Origin: Thermodesulfobacteriota bacterium
GTDB lineage: Bacteria > Desulfobacterota > WTBG01 > CAIYCZ01 > CAIRTM01
Assembly: GCA_028278025.1 (NCBI GenBank)
Contig: JANQFE010000134.1
Location: 1-64,000, forward strand
Direction of reading: 5' to 3'
DNA: 64,000 bases
Below, in pieces: positions 32,163 through 37,711 of the stretch. The translations under genes and the position numbers were made by a program. The notes beneath the pieces were generated by a model that worked only from the letters and a program-made list of their open reading frames with translations, did no database searches and was not told where the DNA came from. Positions within the stretch are counted from its first letter, which is position 1, and every line of letters starts with the position of its first letter.

Positions 32163-35100
32163 TTACAGCGTAACCGGCACAACTATCTCTTTGTATCCAC
32201 GCATAAGGCGCTTGCGCTTAACTGTTACCTGCAGCACATCTCCTTTTTTATGATTGAGCAGGAAAATTTTGAGACCGGCTATATCTGTAATATCGCGCTT
32301 ATCAACAGCCACGATTATATCTTCTTCCCTGAGCCCCGCTTGTTCTGCAGGACCGCCGGGCATGATTTTCTCGATAACGACACCGTGCTGCTCTTCCTTG
32401 ATCATTACCATCAAGCGCGGGCTTTGAGGAGCCGCTAAAGGCTCCGGGAATAAAACAAAATCGGCAATACCCCTGTCAATTTCACCGCCATTGCTGTTAA
32501 GAATAACGACCGGGGTCTCTCCGGTAAGCCGCTGCAGCCTGCCCGGGATACCCCATGAATAGCGCAGGTGCCCGTTGCCTGCCAGCACAACCAGGGGCGT
32601 ATCGGGGTATGTCTGCAGAGCCTCAGCAGCATTATGGGCCATAGTTTCGTCCCACAGGATCTGAGATTGAAAAAAGTTTTCAAAATCCTTGCTGTTGCTG
32701 ACGGTATGGTAGGAAAACACCTTTTGCATACTCTGCCGGTAATCCTGGTTGGTCATGTCGATAGCAGCGGGTATGTGCTGCTGCTCTTCCTCAGTAAGCA
32801 TTTCCAAGCCGTGAGCCGAGACTTTTTTGATAATCTCCGCACCAAGATTCAATGCTATCACCGGTATCTTGTGAGCACGAGCAAAATGCATGATTTCCCG
32901 GTACAGATTATAGTCGAATTTCCAGCGGGTAAAATATTCCGTTTTTTGCAAAAAATCTTCTTCAGAGATCTCACCCTGAATATACCGGTCAAGATACTCC
33001 TGAAAAGGCTGCTGAAACATCTCCATACCAATCACCAGGCGCCCCTTCAGTTTGTATAACCGTCTGATAATTTCAAGCTGCATCACATGGTGGGCATATT
33101 CACTGTGCACCTCACCAACAAATACGACCCGCCTGTCCTGAATGCTGTCTACAATCTCTTCAAGGGTAAGGTTGTTCTGCGGAACTACGGCTTGGGCCCT
33201 TAAAGTGAAATCCTTAACTATCCCCGGCACCGACTCTGCCAGCTGTTTTGTAATGTTTTTTCCATCCTCAAAAAGCAGGTAAGAGTAGGTACCGTATCTG
33301 TATATTTTCCTGAAGGCCTTGGCAAACTCATCGCTACTGCGGGCCTGCATAAGAAGCGCAACTTTATCTTCAGCAAGGGGGTTTGTGCGGGCCTGCACAA
33401 TCAAACCCGCATCCGGTAGCGGTTTGTCGGCAAACAGCCGTCTATATACCCCGTTGTGTGCAGACATGAAGAGTACCGGCCTTTTTACTATATCCCTGTT
33501 GGTTACCTCATTTTCGGTTTTTACTGCATAACCCCGGTCCTCAAAAAATGTTACCGCCGGATCATATAGTTCCCGGTCATCGGCAGGCATAATAACCAAC
33601 CCATGCGGGCTGCCGGTAAAAGCCGAAATCACCGGTGGTTTTTCTGCCGCAGTCAGGTCCCGCATGATATCATACCGGGCATCAAGCACTATCCGTTCGG
33701 GTCTTTCTGTAAACATCTTCTGCATATGCACCCGTCTGGTGTCTATGTGCACATGAGACTCCTCACGACCCAGAGACGTTTCAACACACACCGGCACGTC
33801 AAGGTCGTATATTTCCTTTTTTTGCACTATGTCGACCTCTAAAAGATAGGTGCCGTTACGGTATAGCACCGCTATATTCTCCACATCCACGGATGGGATT
33901 CCTTTTCTGTATACCCACTGCCCAAAAAAATCTTCCAGATCATTTTCTGTTTCCGACGCAAAGGCATGCTTAACATCATCCCAAGAAGCCTGTTTATATT
34001 GTGACAAAGTTATAAACTGTTTGAGTCCTCTGAAAAAGACTGTATCGCCCAGTTTCATTCTCAGCATGTGAAAAAGCATTGCGCCCTTGCCGTACCCAAC
34101 GGCCCTGGAGGAACGATTTTGCACCCCCGAAAATCTTTCCAGGGTCAGCTCACTATGCGGTGATACATAATTCATATAACCAATGAGAATTTTCTTACGG
34201 TATTCAGGCCCTTCACCTGCCAGATGTTTATACCAGTGGTCGGCAAGATAGGTAACAAGCCCTTCCGACCAGTTTCCTTTTTCATAATCAACATATATGT
34301 GGTTACCAAACCACTGATGCAAAATCTCATGTCCGAGGGAGGTCTCCACTATAAAGGGCAGCTTCAGGACTTTTGTGCCCAGCAGTGTATAGGTTGGAAA
34401 GGAGTAGCCCGTTTGGAACCGATTTTCCACGATAGCAAAGCTTGCATAGGGAAACCGCCCGAGCATTGATTCATAAAGTTCCAGGTAGCGCTTTGTATGC
34501 TGGAAATAGGTTGAAGCCAGTTTTTTGTCGGCTGAAAACAAGAAGGCCTTAAGGCTAATACCACGGAAATCTTCTTGATACACCGTATACCTGCCTGCAA
34601 TCAGGGTCAGCCCGGGAAGCGGATGAGCAAAGGTAAAACTGACGGCTTTACGGTCGCCGGTGATCTGAGCTGTGGCGGTATTTGCCTCGGAAACTGCCTC
34701 AAAATCCGACGGCACATCTACGATGAGGCTGTATGCCGCAAGTCCCGCAACCGCCGGATACCAGTCTGAAAGAAGCGTTATTCCTGAATCATCCAGTATA
34801 TTACGGCCTGATGAACCGTGACCTATAGTATCTTCCTTCTGCTGTGAGGCTGGAAATTCGGCCGTGTAGTTGATTATAATAGTTTTATCTTCAGCTTCTG
34901 CCTCGATCACGGCCGGTATGTTTTGCCCGCCTGTATTGTGAGAGCCGCTCATCACCCAGGACAGTATCTCGCAGTCACCCGGCTGGATAGCCAGGTTCAT
35001 TCCTGCCGGAACAGTAATATGAGCCCGCCCCTCAAGCAATCGGCTTTCGGGCAAGACCTTTACATGCAATGCATACCGGGGGATCTCTACCGCCCACAGG

Positions 35101-35165
35101 TTGCACACACCCGCTGCCAGAAAGATAAAAAGGAGAGCTGTAGTGGTTTTTATATATGGTATCAT
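32163..35165 (-). CDS. Secreted M1-family metallopeptidase fused to ChaN-like and PDZ domains
   Basis: 1000 residues from the ATG at 35165; a GTG at 35204 is the alternative. A signal peptide (about 1-25, TALLFIFLAAGVCNLWA) is followed by an M1 (gluzincin) peptidase with HEILHQWFGN (about residue 280) and the second Glu in NWSEGLVTYLADHW, a linker, then a ChaN/Tiki-like domain (about 665-880: RVVFVGEVHSEYAHHVMQLE, IGMEMFQQPFQEYLDRY, with its conserved Glu/His set) and a C-terminal PDZ domain (about 910-1000: MPGGPAEQAGLREEDIIV). M1 cuts N-terminal residues, ChaN binds haem in other bacteria. Such a three-part combination is unusual. Located in the periplasm. Confidence 0.85.
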   Translation of the reverse strand: MIPYIKTTTALLFIFLAAGVCNLWAVEIPRYALHVKVLPESRLLEGRAHITVPAGMNLAIQPGDCEILSWVMSGSHNTGGQNIPAVIEAEAEDKTIIINYTAEFPASQQKEDTIGHGSSGRNILDDSGITLLSDWYPAVAGLAAYSLIVDVPSDFEAVSEANTATAQITGDRKAVSFTFAHPLPGLTLIAGRYTVYQEDFRGISLKAFLFSADKKLASTYFQHTKRYLELYESMLGRFPYASFAIVENRFQTGYSFPTYTLLGTKVLKLPFIVETSLGHEILHQWFGNHIYVDYEKGNWSEGLVTYLADHWYKHLAGEGPEYRKKILIGYMNYVSPHSELTLERFSGVQNRSSRAVGYGKGAMLFHMLRMKLGDTVFFRGLKQFITLSQYKQASWDDVKHAFASETENDLEDFFGQWVYRKGIPSVDVENIAVLYRNGTYLLEVDIVQKKEIYDLDVPVCVETSLGREESHVHIDTRRVHMQKMFTERPERIVLDARYDIMRDLTAAEKPPVISAFTGSPHGLVIMPADDRELYDPAVTFFEDRGYAVKTENEVTNRDIVKRPVLFMSAHNGVYRRLFADKPLPDAGLIVQARTNPLAEDKVALLMQARSSDEFAKAFRKIYRYGTYSYLLFEDGKNITKQLAESVPGIVKDFTLRAQAVVPQNNLTLEEIVDSIQDRRVVFVGEVHSEYAHHVMQLEIIRRLYKLKGRLVIGMEMFQQPFQEYLDRYIQGEISEEDFLQKTEYFTRWKFDYNLYREIMHFARAHKIPVIALNLGAEIIKKVSAHGLEMLTEEEQQHIPAAIDMTNQDYRQSMQKVFSYHTVSNSKDFENFFQSQILWDETMAHNAAEALQTYPDTPLVVLAGNGHLRYSWGIPGRLQRLTGETPVVILNSNGGEIDRGIADFVLFPEPLAAPQSPRLMVMIKEEQHGVVIEKIMPGGPAEQAGLREEDIIVAVDKRDITDIAGLKIFLLNHKKGDVLQVTVKRKRLMRGYKEIVVPVTL

Positions 35166-35237
35166 GTTTTTTTTGATAGTCGACAGATTGCCAGAAGACT
35201 GCACCCGACCTCAGGGGACTGCAACAGTAGAAACAAA

Positions 35238-35600
35238 CTATGCTTCCTCATAATTCCTCTTCCAGTTTTCATACCCATAATCCAGCAAATAGGCTTTATC
35301 TTCAGGTTTTATCATTTGCAATTCGCCTCCGGCCATATAACTGTAGCCTTCTGCGCAATTTGATTCTTTTATCCATTTGAGATGTACCACGGCATGTACC
35401 GGCTCTATGCGTATAGGAATATCTATTTCCAGCTTGAGACTCGGACCGATAGCAACTTTCTCGTTTAACAGTAGTTTTACGGCAAGGCCCTGCCTGCTTA
35501 TTTGAGTTACCTTACAATGAAGGTCTTCCTGCGTTTCGTCACCCATGCACATAGCATGAAGTTCTAGGGGAAATCGTTGAAACTTTCTCTTTTCTTCCAT
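35238..35600 (-). CDS. PilZ-domain protein
   Basis: 120 residues. The c-di-GMP-binding motifs are seen as KRKFQRFPL (RxxxR) near residues 4-12 and QISRQGLAV (close to D/NxSxxG) near 33-41. Single-domain PilZ proteins act as c-di-GMP-dependent adaptors. The Asp of the second motif is replaced by Gln-Ile-Ser, so binding strength is uncertain. About 70 bp separate it from the peptidase downstream. Confidence 0.75.
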   Translation of the reverse strand: MEEKRKFQRFPLELHAMCMGDETQEDLHCKVTQISRQGLAVKLLLNEKVAIGPSLKLEIDIPIRIEPVHAVVHLKWIKESNCAEGYSYMAGGELQMIKPEDKAYLLDYGYENWKRNYEEA

Positions 35601-35769: not shown

Positions 35770-36951
35770 TCAGGTACCCTGGTCAGGGCCAATTGGTTGC
35801 TGCCCATAAAAGGCACACATCGCCGGATCAGGTGCCAGGGGATAGGGGGCGCGGAAACGGCAGCCCCCGGCACAATCATCAAGAAACCGACAGTTTCTGC
35901 ACTCAAGTTGAGTAAGTGCAATATGCTGCCGTTTAAGCCAGCATGCAGACAGACTGTGACGGGCGTCACCAAGAGGCTCATCTTCATAAAAACCGCACTT
36001 TACCGCTGAACCCGTAGGCAGAACCGTCATCAGATGCCTGCCGCAGGCAAAGCCGTCTGAAGAGCCGTGATAACTATTCCCGTAAGAATAGTGCCTATAG
36101 GCTGCTGCCGCTTCGTAGGGAACCGTCAAATCCTGATGCTGCCTGAGCATACCGGCCATGCACAGTACATCTATATCCCAGGCAGTTGCGCCGATTTCTT
36201 CGGCAAAGTCCTGCAGTCGTTTAAACTCATCCAGATTACCCTTGTGAATCATCGTAGCTAGAGAGACCGGGATCCCGGCCTGTCGAGCCAGCTGCACGCC
36301 GCGCAAGGTGCGCTCAAAAGTTCCCGGCCCTCTCAGCACATCATGTCCCTGCTGCCACCCGTCCAGGCTGAACTGGATATTGTCAACGCTAAGCCAGGAA
36401 ATGTTTTTTTTAGTAATCAGGGTTCCATTGGTCAGCAATACCCGCCGCAGTTTCAGATCGGATGTTTCTGCAATAAAATCTTTTAAATATGGATACATCA
36501 CAGGCTCGCCACCGGAGATCAGCAGGCGCAAACCGCCAAGAGATGAAAACTGGTGTGCAATCGCAAGGGCGTCATCAAGCAACAGCATATCCTGCTTTTT
36601 GTCCCCCAGATAGCAGTGGCGGCACTGCAGGTTGCAGCGATGCAGCAGCTGCAGCTCAAGATACCGCAAAGAGGGTTCTGGTGCATTATAGCAGGTAACC
36701 GGTATTGGCTGCGGTTGACTGAGCGCCTCCAGCAGCCCCTCCCCCAGACAGTACTCAACAAACTCGGCCTCTGCGGTCAGTATGCCGCCCGGGACGGAAC
36801 CATTACAGCGGGCCAGAAACGCCAGTGCTTTTTCATCAATTTCATACAGCTCATCCCGGCCGATATGATAGACAGAGGGCTGTTCCAGGTTTTTCAGGCT
36901 CACCTGGGGCTGAAGGCGCAGAAAGGCTCTTCGCCAGTTTGTATCATGCAC
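35770..36951 (-). CDS. Radical SAM/SPASM peptide maturase with N-terminal PqqD-like domain
   Basis: 393 residues. The N-terminal 90 residues look like a PqqD-type peptide-recognition fold (FLRLQPQVSLKNLE, YEIDEKALAFLARCNG, EFVEYCLGEGLLEAL). The radical SAM core starts at about 93 with CNLQCRHCYLG (CxxxCxxC as CNLQCRHC), then ISGGEPVMYP and FSLDG. The C-terminus holds SPASM-type Cys: KCGFYEDEPLG, ECRNCRFLDDCAGGCRF and the final C near PDPAMCAFYG. This is the architecture of enzymes that install thioether or other cross-links in ribosomal peptides. The GTG start overlaps the Cys-rich gene by 8 bp. The 20-aa peptide gene at 37546-37608 is the obvious substrate candidate. Confidence 0.85.
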   Translation of the reverse strand: MHDTNWRRAFLRLQPQVSLKNLEQPSVYHIGRDELYEIDEKALAFLARCNGSVPGGILTAEAEFVEYCLGEGLLEALSQPQPIPVTCYNAPEPSLRYLELQLLHRCNLQCRHCYLGDKKQDMLLLDDALAIAHQFSSLGGLRLLISGGEPVMYPYLKDFIAETSDLKLRRVLLTNGTLITKKNISWLSVDNIQFSLDGWQQGHDVLRGPGTFERTLRGVQLARQAGIPVSLATMIHKGNLDEFKRLQDFAEEIGATAWDIDVLCMAGMLRQHQDLTVPYEAAAAYRHYSYGNSYHGSSDGFACGRHLMTVLPTGSAVKCGFYEDEPLGDARHSLSACWLKRQHIALTQLECRNCRFLDDCAGGCRFRAPYPLAPDPAMCAFYGQQPIGPDQGT

Positions 36952-37306
36952 TGCACATCTCCTCGATATTCGATAGGGTCAGCATGCCCTGTTCCATCAA
37001 AAGACTCAGCAGTATATACCCGCCGCAGGGCTCTGCATCAGGGGGCCGGTTTGGGGATTGAAAGTCACAGCCTTCTGCACGGAATTCACAATGCCGGCAC
37101 ACGCACACTTCAAGTCCCGGGTCACGCTGATCCCATAAGTGCGAAGATTTCCCCGTCTGAGGCATTGCAGGCGGATTCAACAAACCGCTTTGCACCATAT
37201 GCTCAATTACGCTTGCTCCCCGGCAGGCCATCTCTTCCTTATGGCCTTCACGAAAAAATTTACAAAACGGTCGGCAAATATAGTCCTTGAAATCTCTTTT
37301 ACTCAT
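36944..37306 (-). CDS. Cys-rich partner protein of the radical SAM maturase
   Basis: 120 residues with nine Cys, including YICRPFC near the start and VCVCRHCEFRAEGCDF in the middle (about residues 68-83), and a last Cys two residues from the end. I do not recognise a family; the Cys spacing suggests iron-sulfur or zinc binding. The C-terminal stretch GGYILLSLLMEQGMLTLSNIEEM is amphipathic. Its stop overlaps the maturase start by 8 bp, so the two are made together. It may be an adaptor or electron carrier for the peptide modification; that is inference from position. Confidence 0.65.
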   Translation of the reverse strand: MSKRDFKDYICRPFCKFFREGHKEEMACRGASVIEHMVQSGLLNPPAMPQTGKSSHLWDQRDPGLEVCVCRHCEFRAEGCDFQSPNRPPDAEPCGGYILLSLLMEQGMLTLSNIEEMCSA

Positions 37307-37480
37307 AGGTCATTGTATCCAAAAATTTCATATTGAGCGTTTGTCTGAGAACCCGCACACAGGGAGGCTGGTGGGGAATGTTCAGATGTAAGTTGCAAAT
37401 CCCGCTTGCGGGGGCGCATGAAATCCTGAGGAATGAGGTCCGCCGTGGCGGGAAAGATGGAGGTTTCCCGACAGTCTCCT
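37307..37480. other. Spacer between peptide terminator and Cys-rich gene
   Basis: No accepted gene. The only long frame (37303-37491) starts within the terminator and is discussed under rejected items. Confidence 0.4.
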
Positions 37481-37520
37481 GAAAAAAACAAGGCCGATAG
37501 TTTTTATATACCTATCGGCC
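37481..37520 (-). terminator. Intrinsic terminator (attenuator) after the peptide gene
   Basis: On the minus strand a perfect 9-bp stem GGCCGATAG/CTATCGGCC with an 11-nt loop is followed by TTGTTTTTTT. It lies 26 bp after the peptide stop and before the maturation genes, so it would give much more peptide mRNA than maturase mRNA. Confidence 0.85.
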
Positions 37521-37545
37521 CTTCTTCAGCATACAACCTGTATCG

Positions 37546-37608
37546 CTAGCAAGAACCACCGCATTTACAAAGTCCCTTGGATGTCTTTTTTACTTTTTTG
37601 ATCTTCAT
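37546..37608 (-). CDS. 20-residue Lys-rich, Cys-rich peptide; candidate RiPP precursor
   Basis: The complement reads MKIKKVKKTSKGLCKCGGSC then TAG. The ATG has AAGGGGA six bases upstream, a strong ribosome site. The basic N-terminal half could be the leader and the C-terminal LCKCGGSC, with three Cys and two Gly, the core to be modified. It has a consensus promoter, a dyad operator and an intrinsic terminator of its own, and lies in the same orientation as a Cys-rich protein and a PqqD/radical SAM/SPASM enzyme. Thioether (sactipeptide or ranthipeptide type) links from the Cys are plausible. A free metal-binding peptide is the alternative. Confidence 0.7.
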   Translation of the reverse strand: MKIKKVKKTSKGLCKCGGSC

Positions 37609-37621
37609 TGTGTCCCCTTTC

Positions 37622-37636
37622 TTCGCATAGTGCGAA
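37622..37636 (-). promoter_or_regulatory. Dyad operator before the peptide gene
   Basis: TTCGCATAGTGCGAA, a 15-bp inverted repeat with 6-bp arms, located between the promoter and the ribosome site in the mRNA leader. It could be a repressor site or a small RNA hairpin. Confidence 0.5.
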
Positions 37637-37683
37637 TATAAAAATTTAAAAAATACAAAACACCGGGAAAATAATATATTTAA

Positions 37684-37711
37684 TTTATAACGTTAAAATC
37701 ATAGTTGTCAA
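37684..37711 (-). promoter_or_regulatory. Sigma-70 promoter of the peptide gene
   Basis: Minus strand TTGACA (37711-37706), 16-bp spacer, TATAAA (37689-37684), giving a leader of about 65-70 nt. Confidence 0.65.

Follow-up and report, generated by a model that had tools for sequence, protein, structure and literature searches.

Two cofactor pathways, those of PQQ (PqqA/PqqD/PqqE) and mycofactocin (MftA), start from a very short precursor peptide, employ a PqqD-like RRE together with a radical SAM/SPASM enzyme and display a cofactor-like conservation; the core of PqqA carries a Glu/Tyr pair. Sactipeptide maturase systems act on Cys-containing peptides, and the common fold of SkfB, AlbA and CteB combines an RRE, a radical SAM and a SPASM/Twitch domain. 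SuiB is the enzyme that forms the Lys-Trp bond of streptide. Further radical SAM/SPASM enzymes with small partners, several of them in anaerobes, are represented in NCBIfam by GeoRSP, SCIFF, SynChlorMet and other radical SAM-peptide systems.

Here, we analysed a stretch of 64,000 nucleotides from a Thermodesulfobacteriota bacterium (the window), which contains a locus with the general traits of an RRE-dependent radical SAM RiPP system, namely a maturase with RRE (by predicted fold), radical SAM and SPASM parts, and a conserved ribosomal precursor peptide paired with it. Like the PQQ and mycofactocin systems, it brings together a very short precursor, a PqqD-like RRE, a radical SAM/SPASM enzyme and a cofactor-like conservation, but its core is different and the protease and dehydrogenase partners are not conserved. 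The Cys-containing substrate is shared with the sactipeptide systems, from which the locus differs in its 20-aa precursor, its CKCxxSC tail, an additional Cys-rich partner and the lack of bacteriocin genes. At the level of family models, the maturase stayed well below the cut-offs, reaching 70.9 bits against the sactisynthase StsB (cut-off 625), 74.3 bits against the PqqE equivalog (381), 61 bits against the mycofactocin radical SAM equivalog (265) and 55.3 bits against the GeoRSP_rSAM equivalog (400), and none of the GeoRSP, SCIFF, SynChlorMet or other such models matched the peptide, the Cys-rich partner or an associated cupin. In NCBIfam (June 2026) and Pfam, these four proteins matched no model at cut-off except the generic Radical_SAM family, and a search largely confined to open papers found none with the peptide strings or the system. 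An earlier note on this DNA could not match the peptide or the Cys-rich protein to a named class. We consider the locus to be a putative peptide-modifying system of the RRE-radical SAM-SPASM kind, whose precursor class and helper protein are both new.

Layout and expression signals of the locus

All features described here lie on the minus strand. The peptide gene (37546..37608; 63 bp, ATG to TAG), a member of a conserved family, is followed by an intrinsic terminator (~37481..37522), the gene of a 120-aa protein with nine Cys, seven of them family-invariant (36944..37306), and the gene of a 393-aa radical SAM protein (35770..36951), whose GTG start overlaps the preceding gene by 8 nt, an arrangement already described in the earlier note. 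The peptide has the sequence MKIKKVKKTSKGLCKCGGSC, with a predicted leader of residues 1-13 and the core CKCGGSC, and contains neither Tyr nor Glu.

The ribosome-binding site AAAGGGG (37614..37620), read directly from the sequence, is located 5 nt 5' of the peptide ATG. Upstream of it, the proposed promoter TTGACA-18-TAAATT (37682..37711) is sigma-70-like in 10 of 12 positions, being a consensus match only. Between the two, in the 5' leader, lies the short dyad TTCGCA-CTA-TGCGAA (37622..37636); since it folds weakly (z -1.2) and was not seen upstream of the peptide genes of the closest relatives, the role of an operator that it had been given is unsupported.

The intrinsic terminator is strong. 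Made up of a GGCCGATAG stem, CTATCGGCC and then TTGTTTTTTT, its hairpin has a folding energy of -24.4 kcal/mol (z -6.6 against shuffles), and it had been missed by a mechanical scan because of its long loop. Terminator-like hairpins with unrelated stem sequences were found 3' of at least 39 of 69 members of the peptide family, so that the peptide often forms its own short transcript. This separate termination supports the notion of a high precursor-to-enzyme ratio, which had been deduced from the layout.

The maturase

The radical SAM/SPASM nature of the 393-aa enzyme is supported by a Pfam match to Radical_SAM (E 2.7e-19) and by a confident AlphaFold2 model (pLDDT 94.5, pTM 0.92). Among solved structures, its fold comes closest to SkfB (Z 26.8, model residues 15-374) and SuiB (Z 25.5 over 353 residues, model residues 10-384), followed by anSME, CteB, ChlB and PqqE, while the identity with SkfB, AlbA and CteB in the aligned fold amounts to only about 20% or less. 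As the SkfB and SuiB alignments begin at model residues 10-15 and cover the N-terminal RRE, the designation of the N-terminus as PqqD-like is correct at the fold level, with the predicted RRE domain spanning residues 10-78 (36718..36924). C106, C110 and C113 of the radical SAM motif C106-x3-C110-x2-C113 (36613..36636) and the seven Cys of the SPASM region (35815..36045), C303, C319, C351, C354, C360, C364 and C379, are invariant in 37 sequences. The predicted architecture is RRE, radical SAM and seven-Cys SPASM.

Seven SPASM Cys are too few for the full ligation of two auxiliary clusters. AlbA has the same number, on which grounds it was proposed to have an open substrate-binding site, and an open Aux I site was seen in CteB, whereas the Aux clusters of SuiB are fully ligated (PMC6231123). 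The seven-Cys SPASM of our maturase, by analogy, favours a chemistry at a substrate cysteine. Together with the likeness to the SkfB fold it would point to a thioether between Cys S and C-alpha of the sactipeptide type, both pointers being only indirect; the Cys count is no proof of thioether chemistry, as SuiB, likewise one of the nearest folds, forms a Lys-Trp bond and a non-Cys ligand is possible. With SuiB, the maturase shares the overall architecture and the core has an invariant Lys, but the peptides contain no Trp.

The peptide family

The family comprises 62 distinct peptides, 54 of them exactly 20 residues long and lengths of 19-22 being rare exceptions beside the maturases, with the pattern MxIxK[VI]x[KR]...CKCxxSC, and a ribosome site precedes the peptide gene in every relative listed. 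Among the 54 distinct 20-mers, M1, I3, K5, C14, K15, C16, S19 and C20 are invariant or nearly so, while the codons of these positions vary, and the synonymous share of the codon differences is 0.60 against a neutral expectation of 0.22 (non-independent pairs with 75-99% DNA identity). The 63-bp frame is a real gene family under purifying selection. The earlier note had taken the 20-residue peptide to be a true gene product and had named the lack of a conserved short frame near maturase homologues as evidence against this; length, leader, tail and the 20-codon frame itself proved to be conserved.

A gene of 63 bases falls below the usual limits of gene finding, and most genomes probably lack an annotation for this family; the substrate can be located genome-wide by the pattern CKCxx[ST]C-stop combined with an M-x-I-x-K start. 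The peptides are on average more similar to each other than the maturases (mean identity 61% versus 44%), and peptide distance tracks maturase distance (Mantel r 0.51, p 0.0002).

Some genomes carry two peptide copies. At locus L036, two genes (230-292 and 1673-1735) flank the cupin and a methyltransferase-like gene, and at L146 two genes stand in tandem. Additional paralogues with CKCHSSC tails were noticed at L207 (4327-4410) and L211 (2664-2747), adjoining heavy-metal ATPase, FeoB/Fur-like or YHS-domain genes.

Co-occurrence and distribution of peptide and maturase

In 98 related genomes, a peptide ending in CKCxx[ST]C-stop was present in all 13 maturase-positive and in none of the 85 maturase-negative members (Fisher p 1.9e-16). 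Across 395 genomes of the phylum, the ending occurred in 37 of the 38 maturase-positive and in 7 of the 357 maturase-negative genomes, where the seven matches are due to chance, none having the leader. Of the 38, only G223 departs from this, and its maturase locus is flanked by repeats. The genomes surveyed were mostly MAGs. At 34 of the 45 named orthologous loci, the peptide is encoded on the maturase strand no more than 1.5 kb away, 17 times upstream and 17 times downstream of the maturase; at six of the remaining 11 it is found elsewhere in the genome.

The maturase orthologues, mostly 33-62% identical, belong by name to Desulfobacterota, Nitrospirota, Actinomycetota and Rokubacteria and, among the archaea, to Archaeoglobus, Geoglobus, Methanoperedens, Hydrothermarchaeum and Asgard archaea. 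With the leader pattern, no peptide was detected either in G223 or in the Asgard genomes, and none was recognised at the three Asgard loci (L077, L081 and L084), of which two are truncated at a contig end. In L081 and L084, a short form of the Cys-rich partner follows the maturase. The Asgard maturases may use a diverged substrate.

With three Cys codons in a short frame, and a strong terminator ahead of the structural genes, the peptide could also be taken for a cysteine-sensing attenuation leader peptide that controls the enzyme genes through the terminator. Such a leader always lies directly upstream of the gene it regulates, but half of the linked copies are located downstream of the maturase and several are unlinked, which speaks against an attenuator despite the terminator; moreover, purifying selection extends over most of the peptide and takes in the basic N-terminus, which lies well away from the Cys codons. 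We rejected this explanation, which is hardly credible. The near-perfect co-occurrence makes it very probable instead that the peptide is the raw material of a modified peptide or peptide-derived cofactor, in agreement with the original view of the locus as a RiPP locus, and we are highly confident that peptide and enzyme represent precursor and maturase.

Partner proteins of the maturase

The Cys-rich protein, conserved as a partner of the maturase, has the seven family-invariant Cys C11, C15, C28, C70, C73, C80 and C94. It occurs in a long form, in a short form (about 50-80 aa) matching the C-terminal half of the long one (hhalign probability 96%), and fused to the N-terminal side of the maturase (L030, L032, L047, L049, L059 and L214). 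When fused, maturase-only and Cys-only proteins were aligned together, the Cys proteins were wrongly placed on the SPASM region, and this alignment was dropped. The partner was modelled as all-helical (pLDDT 86.5), and its fold gave no PDB match with E <3, from which the novelty of the fold does not follow. Viral contigs revealed no such Cys protein.

Next to the maturase, 7 of the 13 positive relatives encode a small cupin whose tail is rich in His; the 85 negative genomes have none (p 1.2e-7). This cupin is an accessory partner, absent from the genome studied here. At L041, L042, L043, L055 and L080, the cassette is adjoined by another radical SAM/SPASM protein (about 315-343 aa, with a motif like IQFFPTLRCNxxCxFCFN), which may be a further tailoring enzyme. 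The 25 commonest families shown in a pooled Pfam scan of 143 neighbours included no dedicated peptidase, transporter or target protein.

Proposed modification and product

In the mechanism that we propose, the separately terminated 20-codon gene would supply the precursor peptide, its basic N-terminal part (MKIKKV...) would bind to the RRE domain of the maturase, and the maturase, aided by the small Cys-rich partner, would modify the invariant CKCxxSC tail. The likeliest reaction, to which we give an even chance, would be the formation of at least one thioether or other cross-link from the core cysteines. As a whole, the reading of a RiPP-type pair with a modified CKCxxSC tail and an intracellular metal- or redox-active product appears probable to us.

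As the sactisynthases SkfB and CteB are among the closest folds, a bacteriocin-type sactipeptide or ranthipeptide directed against competitors also has to be considered. Its core, however, is almost invariant across phyla and in two domains of life, the precursor is very short, and no immunity, export or protease gene recurs among the conserved neighbours, which leaves this a very improbable explanation. The higher conservation of the peptide than of the enzyme, the lack of such partners and the spread over two domains make a bacteriocin less likely and favour a cofactor-like or metal-binding product inside the cell. Near-invariance across phyla, in bacteria and archaea, is to be expected of a housekeeping product rather than of a weapon, and the same pattern marked PQQ and mycofactocin. 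Taken by itself, the assignment of the product as an intracellular metal- or redox-active peptide or cofactor precursor, and not an antibiotic, falls somewhat short of an even chance.

A special case of our main reading would be that the peptide serves as precursor of a small redox cofactor which is excised, as for PQQ and mycofactocin, so that the free small molecule is the product. The length similar to that of PqqA, the RRE with a radical SAM/SPASM enzyme, the near-invariant sequence, the wide spread in anaerobes, the presence of PqqE among the fold matches and the cupin as a possible extra tailoring protein agree with this, but no peptidase or dehydrogenase partner is conserved nearby, the cupin is missing from this genome, and the peptide does not have a Glu/Tyr pair as in PqqA; we therefore regard excision as unlikely, though worth keeping in mind.

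Returning to the presumed modified peptide, the system is very probably an enzyme-substrate pair of minimal size with a new, sometimes maturase-fused family of Cys-rich helpers. We suggest, as a tentative possibility, that a 20-residue peptide, a dedicated radical SAM enzyme and this new type of helper give rise to a peptide-derived redox or metal cofactor that was unknown until now. If true, it would be a new cofactor common to anaerobic bacteria and archaea, overlooked by annotation since its gene has only 63 bases.

Gene neighbourhood

Heavy-metal ATPase, YHS, Fur or FeoB-like genes, named by reading their sequences, stand beside some of the peptide genes. These neighbours, together with the plausible thiolate site CKC-x2-SC (sometimes CKCHSSC) and the His-rich tail of the cupin, would suit an unmodified metal-binding microprotein, in which case the maturase would act on another substrate of the pathway. 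An RRE-bearing maturase, near-perfect co-occurrence and matched divergence are best accounted for by an enzyme and its substrate, so we consider an unmodified peptide quite unlikely and maintain the precursor-maturase pair.

Rubrerythrin genes are weakly enriched: at nine loci (L035, L041, L048, L051, L055, L057, L060, L061 and L201) they lie no more than 3 kb from the maturase or from an unlinked peptide gene (10 near versus 3 far hits, p 0.03 uncorrected). As a clue to the role in the cell, the rubrerythrin and metal-related neighbours are only suggestive. Links to CODH/acetyl-CoA synthase (10 of 13 positive and 60 of 85 negative genomes, p 0.75) and to the dissimilatory sulfite reductase DsrB (6 of 13 and 37 of 85, p 1.0) were rejected.

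In the window, a PilZ-domain protein (35238-35600, minus strand; Pfam E 5.5e-7) is encoded directly 3' of the maturase and is not a conserved neighbour. Nor is the gene of a 1013-aa protein (32163-35204, minus strand) conserved beside the cassette elsewhere; by eye, its product combines an M1-type metallopeptidase part (HEILHQWFG) with a segment resembling ChaN/TraB and, at the C-terminus, a PDZ-like domain. A 2-oxoacid:ferredoxin oxidoreductase-like gene is found near the cassette in two lineages (L034, L055, L057, L060, L064 and L201).
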